Shown here one piece after another: positions 18,076-32,397 of a stretch of 32,397 nt of DNA. The DNA is from Alphaproteobacteria bacterium. Its GTDB lineage: Bacteria; Pseudomonadota; Alphaproteobacteria; Sphingomonadales; Sphingomonadaceae. Numbering within the stretch: the first letter of the stretch is position 1; every line of letters starts with the position of its first letter. Both the position numbers and the translations under genes were made by a program. Under the pieces are notes generated by a model that did not search any database, was not told the DNA's origin, and saw nothing but the letters and a program-made list of their open reading frames with translations. The stretch is from assembly GCA_030431435.1 (NCBI GenBank), contig JAUIJI010000021.1, forward strand, positions 1 through 32,397, in the 5' to 3' direction.

Positions 18076-18165
18076 TGGCGGACAGGGTGGGATTCGAACC
18101 CACGGAGGGCTTGCACCCTCGCTGGTTTTCAAGACCAGTGCATTCAACCGCTCTGCCACCTGTCC
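18076..18165 (-). tRNA. tRNA-Ser (anticodon UGA)
   Basis: Read on the minus strand, the acceptor stem GGACAGG (18165-18159) pairs with CCTGTCC, followed by discriminator G and an encoded CCA (18078-18076). The anticodon stem-loop CTGGT-CTTGAAA-ACCAG presents TGA, reading UCA and UCG serine codons. The long variable arm (GCGAGGGTGCAAGCCCTC region) is the class II hallmark of serine tRNAs, and the T-loop GTTCGAATC is intact. The length of 90 bases including CCA is normal. Confidence 0.95.
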
Positions 18166-28293: not shown

Positions 28294-28302
28294 CCGATCA
28301 GG
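28289..28302. terminator. Short inverted repeat between convergent mazG and hflX
   Basis: CCTGA (28289-28293) and TCAGG (28298-28302) surround CCGA; both stop codons lie within the stem. It is too short and lacks a T-run to be a convincing terminator. Confidence 0.25.
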
Positions 28303-29641
28303 CCTGATATGTATCGAGTGAATTGAAGCGCCCGAACTCGCGCATCGTCAGGCGCACCACCAGCTTGCGCATGGGGCCGTCTTCGCCCTCGCCGCCATCC
28401 TTGTCCTCCAGCACATCACCATGTGCATAGAGCCAGGCAATACGCTGCCCGTCGCTGGCGGGAATGAGGAGTTCATGTGCTCTGGCATCCCCGGTAAGCA
28501 GGCTTCCCAAGCGATCCATGACGCCTTCGATGCCAAATCCGGTGATCGCGGACATGGGCAGGATGTCGTCGTCAGCTGACGCTACCGCTTCAAGATCGGC
28601 CTTCCGCTCTTCATCGAGCAAGTCCCACTTGTTCCAGACTTCGAGGATCGGGATCGAATTCTCACCCTCCTCTTCCCCGTCGATGACGCCAAGGTCACCC
28701 AGAACCGCCAGGACCTGCGCTTTTTGCGCGGCGCTGTCGGGATTGGCGATATCGCGCACATGCACGATGATATCGGCGGCAGTGACTTCTTCCAGCGTTG
28801 CCCGGAACGCCGCGACAAGCTGCGTCGGCAGGTCCGAGATGAAGCCTACCGTGTCTGACAGGATCGCCTTTTCCACACCGGGCAGCGAGATTGCCCGCAT
28901 GGTCGGATCGAGCGTGGCGAAGAGCAGATCCTCTGCCATCACGTCTGCACCGGTTACCCGGTTGAAAAGCGTGGACTTTCCCGCGTTGGTATAGCCGACC
29001 AGCGCGATGACGGGCCAGGGCGCCCTTCCCCGCCGCTTGCGGTGCAATTCGCGTGTCTTGCGGACTTGCTCGAGCTCGCGGCGCAGTTTGGCCATGCGGT
29101 TGCGGATCAGCCGCCGGTCGGCCTCGATTTGCGTTTCACCTGGACCGCCAAGGAAGCCAAAGCCACCTCGCTGGCGTTCAAGGTGAGTCCAGCTGCGGAC
29201 AAGGCGGCTCTGCTGGTAATCGAGATGCGCCAGCTCCACTTGCAGCCGACCTTCTGCCGTAGATGCCCGCTCACCAAAAATTTCGAGGATCAGGCCCGTC
29301 CGGTCGATAACCTTGCGCTTGAGCTTGTCTTCAAGGTTGCGCTGCTGGATCGGGGACAAGGCGCCATCGATAATGACCAGTTCGGCCTCTGCCAGCTCAC
29401 AGTCGCTGACCATGCGCTGGACCTGGCCTTCGCCGAACAGAGTATTCGGCCGCACATCGCGCACTGGCAGGATGTAGCTTTCAGCCACGACGATCCCGAT
29501 GGCCAGCGCCAGTCCCCTCGCCTCTTCCAGTCGTGCTTCGGGATCCTGGCTTGAGCGTTGCCGGCGGATATCCGGGCACACGACAAGGGCCCGCGCACCG
29601 CGGGTTACCTCTCCCTCGACCTCTTCATTATCAAATATCAG
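28298..29641 (-). CDS. hflX: GTPase HflX
   Basis: HflX is a ribosome-associated GTPase that splits stalled or stressed 70S ribosomes. Domains in order are the HflX N-terminal domain ([42 protein letters not shown]), the glycine-rich linker [19 protein letters not shown], then the G domain with GYTNAGKST (G1), [10 protein letters not shown] (G3) and NKWDLL (G4). The start is unusual. The first ordinary codon is GTG at 29581 (427 residues), but RGARALVV directly upstream matches what relatives show. In that upstream part no ATG, GTG or TTG occurs before an in-frame stop at 29660-29662. CTG at 29641-29639 would overlap the hfq stop as CTGA and gives 447 residues; I annotate that form tentatively. 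A purine-rich GAAGGCGAAG lies just before it. Confidence 0.92.
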
Positions 29642-30204
29642 GCGTCTTCGCCTTCGTCGTCATTGTCGAACTCGCCACTGAGTTCGACGTGGGTTGCGGG
29701 CTGGATGGTAGAAACCGCGTGCTTGTATGCCAACTGTACGAAGCCATCGCGTTCCAACAACATGCAAAACAGGTCGTAGCTGGCGATGCGGCCTTGCAAC
29801 ATTACGCCATTGATCAGGAACATCGTAACCTGAACGCCCGCCTCGCGCACCCGCGAAAGGAAAATGTCCTGCAACTGGCGTTGCTTGCGGTTGCCTTCCC
29901 CGCCTGGCCCGAACTGTTCGGCATCCACCGGTTGTCCCGGCATGATCGTGGAAATCGCGTGCTTGTAGACGAGCTGGGTTTGCCCATCTCGGCGCAGAAG
30001 GATGGAGAAATTGTCAAACCAGGTGACGATCCCTTGCAATTTCACCCCTTTTACCAGGAACATGGTGACAGGGATCTTCTCCTTGCGAAGGAAATTCAGG
30101 AAGATGTCCTGGAGGTTGCCGGACTTCGCGACTGGCGCAGTTGGTGCCGGCGTTTCGACTTCGCTGGCGGGTACCGCACGAGCGGATAGTTTAGTCCTGG
30201 TCAT
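29638..30204 (-). CDS. hfq: Hfq-like RNA chaperone with two tandem Sm domains
   Basis: Hfq forms a ring that pairs small RNAs with mRNAs. Normal bacterial Hfq has one Sm domain of about 65 residues and forms hexamers. This 188-residue protein has two: residues about 30-94 ([16 protein letters not shown] ... [14 protein letters not shown]) and 110-174 ([16 protein letters not shown] ... [14 protein letters not shown]), with matching motifs exactly 80 residues apart, a Gly/charged linker, a Pro/Ala-rich N-terminal tail of 29 residues and an acidic end ([11 protein letters not shown]). Both repeats keep Gln-Asp of LQD, the Phe of the FD-x-F / YD-x-F segment, and Lys-His of YKHA, which line the proximal pore in E. 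coli Hfq. The second has lost rim basics and a distal Lys. ATG at 30204 has AGGAG nine bases upstream. It lies between ntrX and hflX, a standard alphaproteobacterial order. Confidence 0.95.
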
Positions 30205-30351: not shown

Positions 30352-31743
30352 CTAATCTTCAGATTTTTCCGCAATGTCCTTGCGATCACCCATGCCAAGA
30401 ATCTTGAGTTTCCGGTGCAAGGCTGACCGTTCCATTCCGATAAAACCGGCCGTCTTGGAAATGTTTCCCGAAAACCGGCGAATCTGGATGCGCAGATATT
30501 CGCGTTCGAAACTCTCGCGCGCCTCTCGCAAGGGGACGCCCATCAGGGAGCTGATACCGCCCCCGCCATCTTCGCTTCCGCCAGTGATCTCGGCGGGCAG
30601 CATGTCGGGATCGATCTTGCCGAACTTGTCACGTGGGGCGAGGATCACCGTGCGTTCCACCACATTGCGCAACTGGCGGACATTACCCGGCCAATCGTAA
30701 GCCTGCAGAGCTGCGGCAGCTTCAGGCGAAACCGTGGGCGGCTGCAACCCCTGTTCACGCGCGTATCGGGTGAAGAAATGGTTCGCCAAGGCCGGGATAT
30801 CGTCGCGACGTTCCGACAATGACGGAATAGCGATTGGCACCACGTTGAGCCTGTAGAACAGATCCTCGCGGAACTTCTTTTCCTCGATTTCCGCTTCAAG
30901 ATCGCGCGCGGTTGAAGACACGACCCGAACATCTACGCCAACTTGCCGGCTGCCGCCCACGCGGACGAAGCTCTGGTCCGTCAGCACCCGAAGGATACGG
31001 GCCTGCGTGCTCAAGGGCATGTCCGCGACTTCATCGAGGTAGAGCGTACCGCCGTCCGCCATCTCCAGCAGGCCGGGACGGACAAGCTTGCCCTCGGCTT
31101 CTTCGCCAAACAGCTCCTGTTCGAAACGCTCAGGTGTGATCCGGGCGGAATTGACCGTGACGAAGGCATTGGCGGCGCGCGGGCTCCATGCGTGCAGCAA
31201 TCGGGCCGCCACTTCCTTGCCCGCCCCGCCCGGCCCGCTGATCAGCACACGGCTGCCGGTGTTCGCCACTCGCTTCAGCGTGGCCCGCACCTGGTTGATC
31301 GCGTTGGAATTGCCGTTGAATTCCTCGGTCGAATTGAACCCTTCGCGCAGCCGGGCGTTCTCGCGGCGCAGGCGTTCGGTTTCGGTAGCCCGTTCGACTA
31401 ACAGCAGCAGCCGTTCTGCCTCGAACGGCTTCTCGATGAAGTCCATCGCGCCGCGGCTGACCGCAGAGACCGCTGTGTCGATATTACCGTGGCCGGAAAA
31501 GATGATGACGGGGAGTTCCGGCTCGCGCTGCTTGATCGCGTCGAGTACTTCAAGGCCGTCCATCGGGCTGCCGTGCAGCCACACATCGAGCAGGACGAGG
31601 CTGGGACGCCTCTCGTCGACCATTCGCAATGCCGAGGTGCTGTCGCCTGCCGTTCGGCATTCATAACCCTCGTCGCTCAGTACACCGGCGACGAGTTCGC
31701 GAATATCCTGCTCATCATCGACAACGAGGATGTCCAGCGCCAT
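30352..31743 (-). CDS. ntrX: NtrX-type response regulator
   Basis: NtrX is the response regulator partnered with NtrY, linked to nitrogen, redox and envelope control in alphaproteobacteria. The 463-residue protein has a receiver domain with acidic pocket VVDDE, phosphoacceptor Asp53 in LVLLDVW and the conserved Lys of IEKPFEAERL; an AAA+ domain with GPGGAGKEVAARLL (Walker A) and GGTLYLDEVADMP (Walker B); and a C-terminal Fis-type helix-turn-helix (NISKTAGFIGMERSALHRKLK). The sigma-54-contacting GAFTGA loop is absent: ELFGEEAEGKLVRPGLLE occupies its place, as usual for NtrX, so direct sigma-54 activation is unlikely. AAGGAG before the ATG at 31743 decides the start; ntrY ends 19 bases upstream. 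Confidence 0.95.
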   Translation of the reverse strand: MALDILVVDDEQDIRELVAGVLSDEGYECRTAGDSTSALRMVDERRPSLVLLDVWLHGSPMDGLEVLDAIKQREPELPVIIFSGHGNIDTAVSAVSRGAMDFIEKPFEAERLLLLVERATETERLRRENARLREGFNSTEEFNGNSNAINQVRATLKRVANTGSRVLISGPGGAGKEVAARLLHAWSPRAANAFVTVNSARITPERFEQELFGEEAEGKLVRPGLLEMADGGTLYLDEVADMPLSTQARILRVLTDQSFVRVGGSRQVGVDVRVVSSTARDLEAEIEEKKFREDLFYRLNVVPIAIPSLSERRDDIPALANHFFTRYAREQGLQPPTVSPEAAAALQAYDWPGNVRQLRNVVERTVILAPRDKFGKIDPDMLPAEITGGSEDGGGGISSLMGVPLREARESFEREYLRIQIRRFSGNISKTAGFIGMERSALHRKLKILGMGDRKDIAEKSED

Positions 31744-31762
31744 TAGTCTTGCTCCTTGGCCG

Positions 31763-32397
31763 TCATTCCGCGGCCTCACTTCCACTCTTCAAATCGCCCG
31801 GGCTAAAGGCAAAGCTGAGCGATGCCTTTGTTCCGCCCCCGGCCGCATCGGTGAACAGCAGCTCGCCGCCGTGCTCCTCGACAATCTTCTTCACGATCGC
31901 GAGGCCAAGGCCGGTGCCTTTCTCGCGGGTGGTAACGTAAGGTTCCATGATATTCTCATGGCTGCCGGGAAGGCCGATACCGTTGTCAGTCACGGTCACA
32001 CGAAGGTGGCCATTCTCGGCCACCACCTCGACCGCGATCTTGCCGCGATAGTCCTCTCCAGCTTCCCGACGGCGCGCGTCGATAGCCTCGGCTGCGTTTT
32101 TCAGGACGTTCGTCATCGCCTGCCCGAACTGGTGGCGATCGCATTCGACATGCGGAATCTCTCCTGCCGCATCGAAGGAATAGCTGATATCGGGATTGCC
32201 GACTTCCTGCAGGAACAGCGACTGGCGAACGAGATCGACCGCATCCTCCTGCCGGAAGACTGGTTTTGGCAAGCGCGCGAATGAAGAGAACTCATCGACC
32301 ATCTTGCGCAAATCACCCACCTGGCGGATGATCGTGCCGGTCAGTTCGTCAAACAGTTCGGTATCTTTTTCGATCTGCTTGCCATAGCGGCGCTTGA
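31763..32397 (-). CDS. ntrY: NtrY-type sensor histidine kinase (C-terminal part, cut by the window edge)
   Basis: The frame is open to the window end, so only about 210 C-terminal residues are seen. The visible part begins KRRYGKQIEKDTELF, just after where the phosphoacceptor-His box would lie, continues through the second dimerisation helix (TIIRQVGDLRKMVDEFSSFARLPKP), then the ATP-binding domain: N box NVLKNAAEAI, G1 DNGIGLP and G2 GTGLGLAIVKKIVEEHGG. MVDEFSSFARLPKP is characteristic of NtrY. Membrane, HAMP and PAS domains would lie outside the window. It is 19 bases upstream of ntrX and surely co-transcribed. Confidence 0.93.
   Translation of the reverse strand, partial: KRRYGKQIEKDTELFDELTGTIIRQVGDLRKMVDEFSSFARLPKPVFRQEDAVDLVRQSLFLQEVGNPDISYSFDAAGEIPHVECDRHQFGQAMTNVLKNAAEAIDARRREAGEDYRGKIAVEVVAENGHLRVTVTDNGIGLPGSHENIMEPYVTTREKGTGLGLAIVKKIVEEHGGELLFTDAAGGGTKASLSFAFSPGDLKSGSEAAE

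Follow-up and report, generated by a model that had tools for sequence, protein, structure and literature searches.

A two-domain Hfq at the ntrX-hfq-hflX locus

The window, by which we mean the whole 32,397-nucleotide stretch of DNA analysed here, carries an hfq gene on the minus strand, flanked upstream by ntrX and downstream by hflX (Table 1), with mazG, which scores above its NCBIfam cut-off, also lying downstream. The gene beyond ntrX is matched by sensor-kinase models, each of the 25 NCBIfam models listed for it scoring below its own cut-off. The order ntrX-hfq-hflX is common to double-domain and single-domain representatives of the Sphingomonadaceae among the regions that we fetched; it is a feature of the group, not a criterion of the double-domain family NF010691. 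One fetched region encoding a double Hfq (L154, from genome G201 of about 2.1 Mb) has no ntrY or ntrX within its 6.5 kb. Elsewhere in the window, a tRNA-Ser (tga) gene was located on the minus strand by ARAGORN (18076-18165) and Rfam (18079-18165).

Table 1. Features of the hfq locus in the window; residue numbers follow E. coli Hfq.
Feature	Position	Strand	Basis and remarks
hflX (GTPase HflX), downstream neighbour on the same strand, source of the locus tree	28298..29581	-	TIGR03156, 434.3 bits (cut-off 216.75)
hfq, 188-aa double-domain RNA chaperone Hfq (NF010691 type)	29638..30204	-	ATG at 30204, stop codon 29638-29640
Acidic C-terminal tail, 15 residues, net charge -8	29641..29685	-	Sequence
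Domain 2 (D2), Hfq/Sm fold, N28, M31, L41, Q63, rim reduced to 2/5 basic sites	29686..29874	-	Pfam match (PF17209 at 29874-29686, 82.5 bits, E 4.5e-23, above curated cut-off), alignment, AlphaFold2
Linker, 17 residues, net charge 0	29875..29925	-	Sequence
Domain 1 (D1), Hfq/Sm fold, full basic rim (5/5 sites), K28 and K31	29926..30114	-	Pfam match (PF17209 at 30114-29926, 108.3 bits, E 3.9e-31, above curated cut-off), alignment, AlphaFold2
ntrX (nitrogen assimilation response regulator), upstream neighbour	30352..31785	-	NF051870, 747.7 bits (cut-off 600)
Putative ntrY, 3' part of a sensor histidine kinase continuing past the window edge	31763..32395	-	Name from position only

The two matches to the Pfam Hfq profile lie in a single open frame on the minus strand without an internal stop, their starts 240 nucleotides (80 codons) apart. 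This bears out the original prediction of two complete Sm units in one chain, and the linker falls within the 15-20 residues then expected. The exact 80-residue period, claimed at the same time, holds for the window protein and does not extend to the group: the spacing spans 72 to 83 residues among the 128 sampled double-domain rows and equals 80 in 51 of them. The window protein exceeds the cut-offs of TIGR02383 (176.7 bits versus 61.7), NF001602 (202.8 versus 95), and NF010691 (291.3 versus 270), the last of these over profile positions 17-175 of 176, so that both domains are covered. AlphaFold2, supplied with an alignment of 67 proteins (the window protein and 66 stretches from named loci, which are the best 80 of 180 relatives), predicted one helix and five strands in each half, that is, two full Sm folds. 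Mean pLDDT over ten-residue blocks was 95-97 for residues 31-90 and 91-96 for residues 111-170; overall, the model, which is of one chain and has the ring outside its scope, reached a pLDDT of 83.0 and a pTM of 0.74. The top Foldseek match among solved structures was Caulobacter Hfq.

Apart from D1 and D2, no Hfq match was found in the window's assembly (2.9 Mb, 163 contigs); since the assembly is 90.5% complete, a second hfq could lie in its missing part. Most likely, the double Hfq is the only Hfq of the cell and serves as its matchmaker for sRNAs and mRNAs.

Relationship to previously described Hfq proteins

The double Hfq is not novel as an architecture, and both the architecture and the three-chain hypothesis are already in print. 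An early phyletic survey of Hfq is reportedly that of Sun et al. (2002). Yang et al. (2010; PMC2877685) described a Zymomonas mobilis Hfq with two Sm-like domains, named six other Sphingomonadales species as exceptions to the one-domain rule, and proposed testing whether just three proteins make the ring; the remark, in the original prediction, that double-Sm Hfq-like proteins occur in sphingomonads was therefore correct. Novosphingobium aromaticivorans has also been counted among the organisms with two hfq-like gene copies (PMC3474761). The Z. mobilis protein, ZMO0347, has two Sm-like domains like the window protein and a known role in stress tolerance, contributing to tolerance of inhibitors; the main-text passages of that report list the interaction and nucleotide-binding sites in two sets, with no mention of a systematic difference between the halves (PMC2877685). 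The model NF010691 (PRK14091, “RNA chaperone Hfq,” 176 positions) has the same two-domain architecture as the window protein, with no architectural difference found, and its listing is silent on unequal halves.

Among solved structures, Caulobacter crescentus Hfq (PDB 6gwk) is the best match to the window protein by both sequence and fold. It combines a basic rim, as in D1, with an acidic tail, as after D2 (PMC6561178), but has one domain per chain and forms a hexamer of one subunit type, whereas the window Hfq has two domains per chain. The eukaryotic Sm/LSm hetero-rings offer an analogy, in that unequal Sm subunits share a ring, as they would here if the alternating model proposed below is right; those rings, however, are heteroheptamers of seven separate proteins (PMC2877685), whereas here two domains share each chain. 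The 35 matching PDB sequences, of up to 114 residues per chain, include no double Hfq, and our searches of the open-licence literature returned no study that had measured the mass, structure, or RNA binding of one.

Distribution of double Hfq

We searched 296 genomes of the order, including 213 of Sphingomonadaceae, of which 202 have exactly two Hfq matches, the two being confirmed to share one open frame in the window and 47 fetched genomes, and 11 have one. Of the order's other 83 genomes, 76 have one match, 1 has two on different contigs (G001), and 6 have none. In a class-wide set of 289 genomes, each of the 4 Sphingomonadaceae has two matches; among the remaining 285, there are 232 with one match, 1 with two on separate contigs (G354), and 52 with none. 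A search of 299 genomes of the phylum with NF010691 yielded 12 above the cut-off, all from Sphingomonadaceae, with 145.7 bits as the best score among the rest; this search excludes only doubles resembling that of the window, because a strongly diverged tandem would score below the NF010691 cut-off. Tandem Hfq was thus seen only in Sphingomonadaceae among the order, class, and phylum genomes sampled.

Two of these genomes have a second match outside the family. In G001, from another family of the order, it is partial and lies at a contig end (L171, contig C82), and it could represent a fragment, contamination, or a paralogue. In G354, from another family of the class, it is a divergent single-domain Hfq (L172, contig C3; 71.4 bits) on a contig apart from the main hfq. 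The 11 Sphingomonadaceae genomes with an ordinary one-domain Hfq belong to seven genera (rows L120, L130, L135, L136, L146, L147, L158, L163, L166, L169, and L170).

A sequencing or assembly artefact is ruled out: the double form lies in a single frame in all 80 named loci (the best 80 of 180 relatives), in addition to the two matches in 202 of 213 family genomes. The suggestion that each chain might work with a second, single-domain Hfq encoded elsewhere was not supported, as a third match is absent from each of the 202 two-match family genomes, and such a partner was found neither in the window's assembly nor in the family genomes searched.

The two halves differ on the distal face and the rim

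Residues were numbered on an E. coli Hfq sequence that we take to be the reference one and were assigned to the proximal or distal face according to where they presumably lie. The 128 double-domain rows comprise the window, 80 named loci (the best 80 of 180 relatives), and 47 fetched regions, and 114 of them are distinct. Single-domain rows comprise the 30 best-scoring loci of the order, 20 hand-picked from the class listing, and 11 from the family, of which 53 are distinct (L019, in the set of 50, is the same gene as L163, in the family set). Domain counts omit L001 and L002, which hold the same gene as the window, as well as the partial L171 and the divergent L172, both of which carry N28 and K31.

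At position 28, lysine is found in D1 and asparagine in D2 of all 114 distinct doubles sampled. At position 31, the 114 sampled D1 domains have lysine (111) or arginine (3), and the D2 domains methionine (113) or alanine (1); position 63 of D2 is glutamine in 113 and alanine in 1 of the same doubles, and position 41 is asparagine in 109/114 D1 and leucine in 104/114 D2 domains. The distinct single-domain rows carry N28, K31, and M63 in 53 of 53 cases, in a sample that leans towards the consensus because its rows were best-scoring or chosen by hand. All odd letters at position 31 and at position 63 of D2 come from L125-L127, and the sole row departing at positions 31 and 63 of D2 is L126.

These three rows, from genus g12 of the Sphingomonadaceae, encode double Hfq proteins with an eroded D2 and an acidic tail that is almost gone; L126, which has lost M31 and Q63, also scores weakly in D1. 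They look like cases of natural decay of D2.

The rim was scored at five sites (E. coli positions 16, 17, 19, an inserted arginine after 46, and 47). The mean number of basic residues at these sites is 4.97 in D1 and 1.98 in D2 of the 114 distinct sampled doubles, and 4.98 and 5.00 in the 50 single-domain rows and the 11 of the family, respectively. Over nine rim sites, the net charge is +3.9 and +4.0 in these two sets of singles, +3.8 in D1, and -0.7 in D2. Rim loss is not universal, with three or four of the five sites basic in D2 of 12 of the 114 distinct sampled doubles, and arginine 16 is kept in D2 of 93 of the 128 double rows.

Residues that contact the bases are retained in both halves. 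Q8, F42, K56, and H57 of the proximal face are present in both domains of the window protein and in 93-100% of 48 double rows, in either domain, and F25, L32, Q33, Q52, and T61 are each found in 93-100% of these rows, in D1 and D2 alike. Q8, K56, and H57 are among the residues listed as RNA-binding (PMC11770335). Across the 48 rows, linkers average 16.5 residues with a net charge of +0.2, and the tails following D2 average 11.4 residues with a net charge of -5.2; the tails of 61 singles have a mean net charge of -4.0. Covariation between D1 and D2, with an effective number of about 40, yielded no clean set of interface pairs.

The duplication itself being known, what this analysis adds is the asymmetry of the halves, which is near-fixed and reciprocal and affects the distal face and the rim; the original prediction had overlooked that the halves are not interchangeable. 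We found no published account of it in the open-licence literature by phrase searching, which is weak evidence of absence because one such search missed PMC2877685, where the wording is “two Sm-like family domains.”

Origin and age of the duplication

In a tree of HflX (71 rows), the 48 doubles form one clade (SH-aLRT 97), so that a single fusion suffices, and the 11 single-domain rows of Sphingomonadaceae form a grade outside it; the tree was obtained by a quick search without bootstrap, has 25 of 68 inner branches open, was rooted with 12 outgroup rows hand-picked from the 30 best-scoring order loci, and brings together the long-branch outgroup rows L004 and L005. A phylogeny of the two repeats, suggested along with the original prediction, recovered D2 as one group (98) and grouped D1 in 42 of 43 rows (99), with five rows of genus g12 left out and with the weakness inherent in 63 columns. 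Within the window protein, D1 and D2 agree in 35 of 63 residues and 113 of 189 bases, with a common codon for 17 of these 35 residues, indicating that the duplication is old, as had been predicted on the basis of the synonymous differences.

A recent duplication or ongoing gene conversion is ruled out by this domain tree together with the equal likeness of D1 and D2 within the same protein (0.552) and between different proteins (0.544). The idea that the single-domain genomes of the family arose by loss of one half is not supported: their 11 rows carry N28, K31, and M63, a combination that neither D1 nor D2 on its own would show, and fall outside the double clade of the HflX tree.

Rim loss is graded within that clade. 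A group of 30 doubles (support 97) has at most two basic rim sites in D2 in 30 of 30 cases, and an 18-row group (84, with an open fork) has one to four. Seven of the 12 rim exceptions are represented in the tree, all inside the 18-row group, the other five being named loci outside the tree. The distal changes would accordingly date back to the fusion, and the loss of the rim appears to have come later and stepwise, as far as can be inferred from the sequences.

A proposed ring of alternating domains

Three chains probably assemble into one six-domain ring with alternating, unequal subunits. We infer the ring itself, the domain order (D1-D2-D1-D2-D1-D2), and the functional effect of the asymmetry. 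Both domains keep the proximal uridine pocket and, on the distal face, the A and R base pockets, so that a ring would still hold six of each. Positions 28 and 31 provide two lysines per pair of domains, the same number as two ordinary subunits have together, but here both lie on D1 (K28, K31), with neither on D2 (N28, M31). The distal R site is formed jointly by two adjacent monomers (PMC6422490); in the proposed ring, the neighbours sharing it would be unequal. With the basic annealing rim kept on D1 and weakened or acidic on D2, every ring would carry strong rims on its three D1 domains, weak or acidic rims (in most D2 sequences) on the other three, and an acidic tail behind each D2, against the six strong rims and six tails of an ordinary ring. 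The functional symmetry would thereby be three-fold, not six-fold.

Studies of single-domain Hfq give an impression of what such differences may entail. The acidic tail of Caulobacter Hfq is reported to pack on R18, K19, and K21 (PMC6561178), which in our mapping align with E. coli positions 16, 17, and 19, and the tip of the E. coli tail binds basic core residues required for annealing (PMC5606850). In E. coli, according to a preprint (PMC12262471), RIL-seq chimeras between sRNAs and mRNAs fell almost four-fold with the K31A substitution and were nearly lost with R16A. The same source cites earlier work in which K31A had minimal effect on regulation and notes that R16A keeps partial regulatory activity, so the altered surfaces may be of less consequence than supposed here. 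In Sphingopyxis granuli, SuhB represses translation of thnR in an Hfq-dependent manner (PMC6563040), which would fit a working sRNA chaperone in sphingomonads, the domain count of that Hfq aside.

A simpler possibility is that three chains form a ring in which the fusion mainly aids assembly at low concentration, the differences in D2 being relaxed drift without functional asymmetry. D2 is indeed the more variable half (mean pairwise identity 0.677 versus 0.805 for D1), rim loss is graded across the double clade, and Hfq assembly can be limiting in E. coli (PMC8060364). Drift, however, leaves unexplained why 114 of 114 D1 domains have K28 and why 113 of 114 D2 domains have M31 and the same number Q63, set against N28, K31, and M63 in 53 of 53 singles, and the only departure of D2 at positions 31 and 63 is L126, from the eroded g12 group; we therefore regard this explanation as unlikely.

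Alternatively, six chains could build two stacked homotypic rings, all-D1 and all-D2, joined by the linkers, the former canonical and the latter with another role. The strong dissimilarity of the D2 surface from that of D1 and the stacking of Hfq rings observed in crystals (PMC5379935) speak in favour of such an arrangement, which we nonetheless judge quite improbable: with its proximal and distal base pockets kept, D2 has no obvious separate function, an all-D2 ring would have no lysines at positions 28 and 31, and a mean linker of 16.5 residues may or may not reach across two rings. That D1 alone forms the RNA-active ring, with D2 as an accessory outside it, is very improbable, for although D2 is the more divergent half and is badly eroded in the three g12 rows, it retains Q52, K56, and H57 in 128 of 128 sampled rows and its Sm fold is complete as predicted by AlphaFold2.

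Returning to the alternating three-chain ring, its fuller version sees in sphingomonad Hfq a bacterial Sm ring whose alternation is built in, derived from a single fusion followed by reciprocal specialisation, in which D1 would carry the distal charge and the annealing rim and D2 a neutral or acidic rim and the tail. We advance this version tentatively, giving it somewhat less than an even chance.

Implications

The part worth following is the asymmetry, not the duplication. In the fuller version of the alternating ring, three sites for annealing would stand beside three inhibitors built into the chains, dividing the labour three-fold in a way that is impossible for homohexameric Hfq. In a homohexamer, any mutation is present in all six subunits, so that the number of rims, pores, and distal sites needed is hard to probe; a chain that naturally has two domains, with near-fixed differences between them, would permit such counting, and hfq mutants exist in Z. 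mobilis. The 11 single-domain Sphingomonadaceae provide a ready comparison set for the state before the fusion. The double Hfq of this family would also show an Sm ring of equal subunits starting towards unequal ones.
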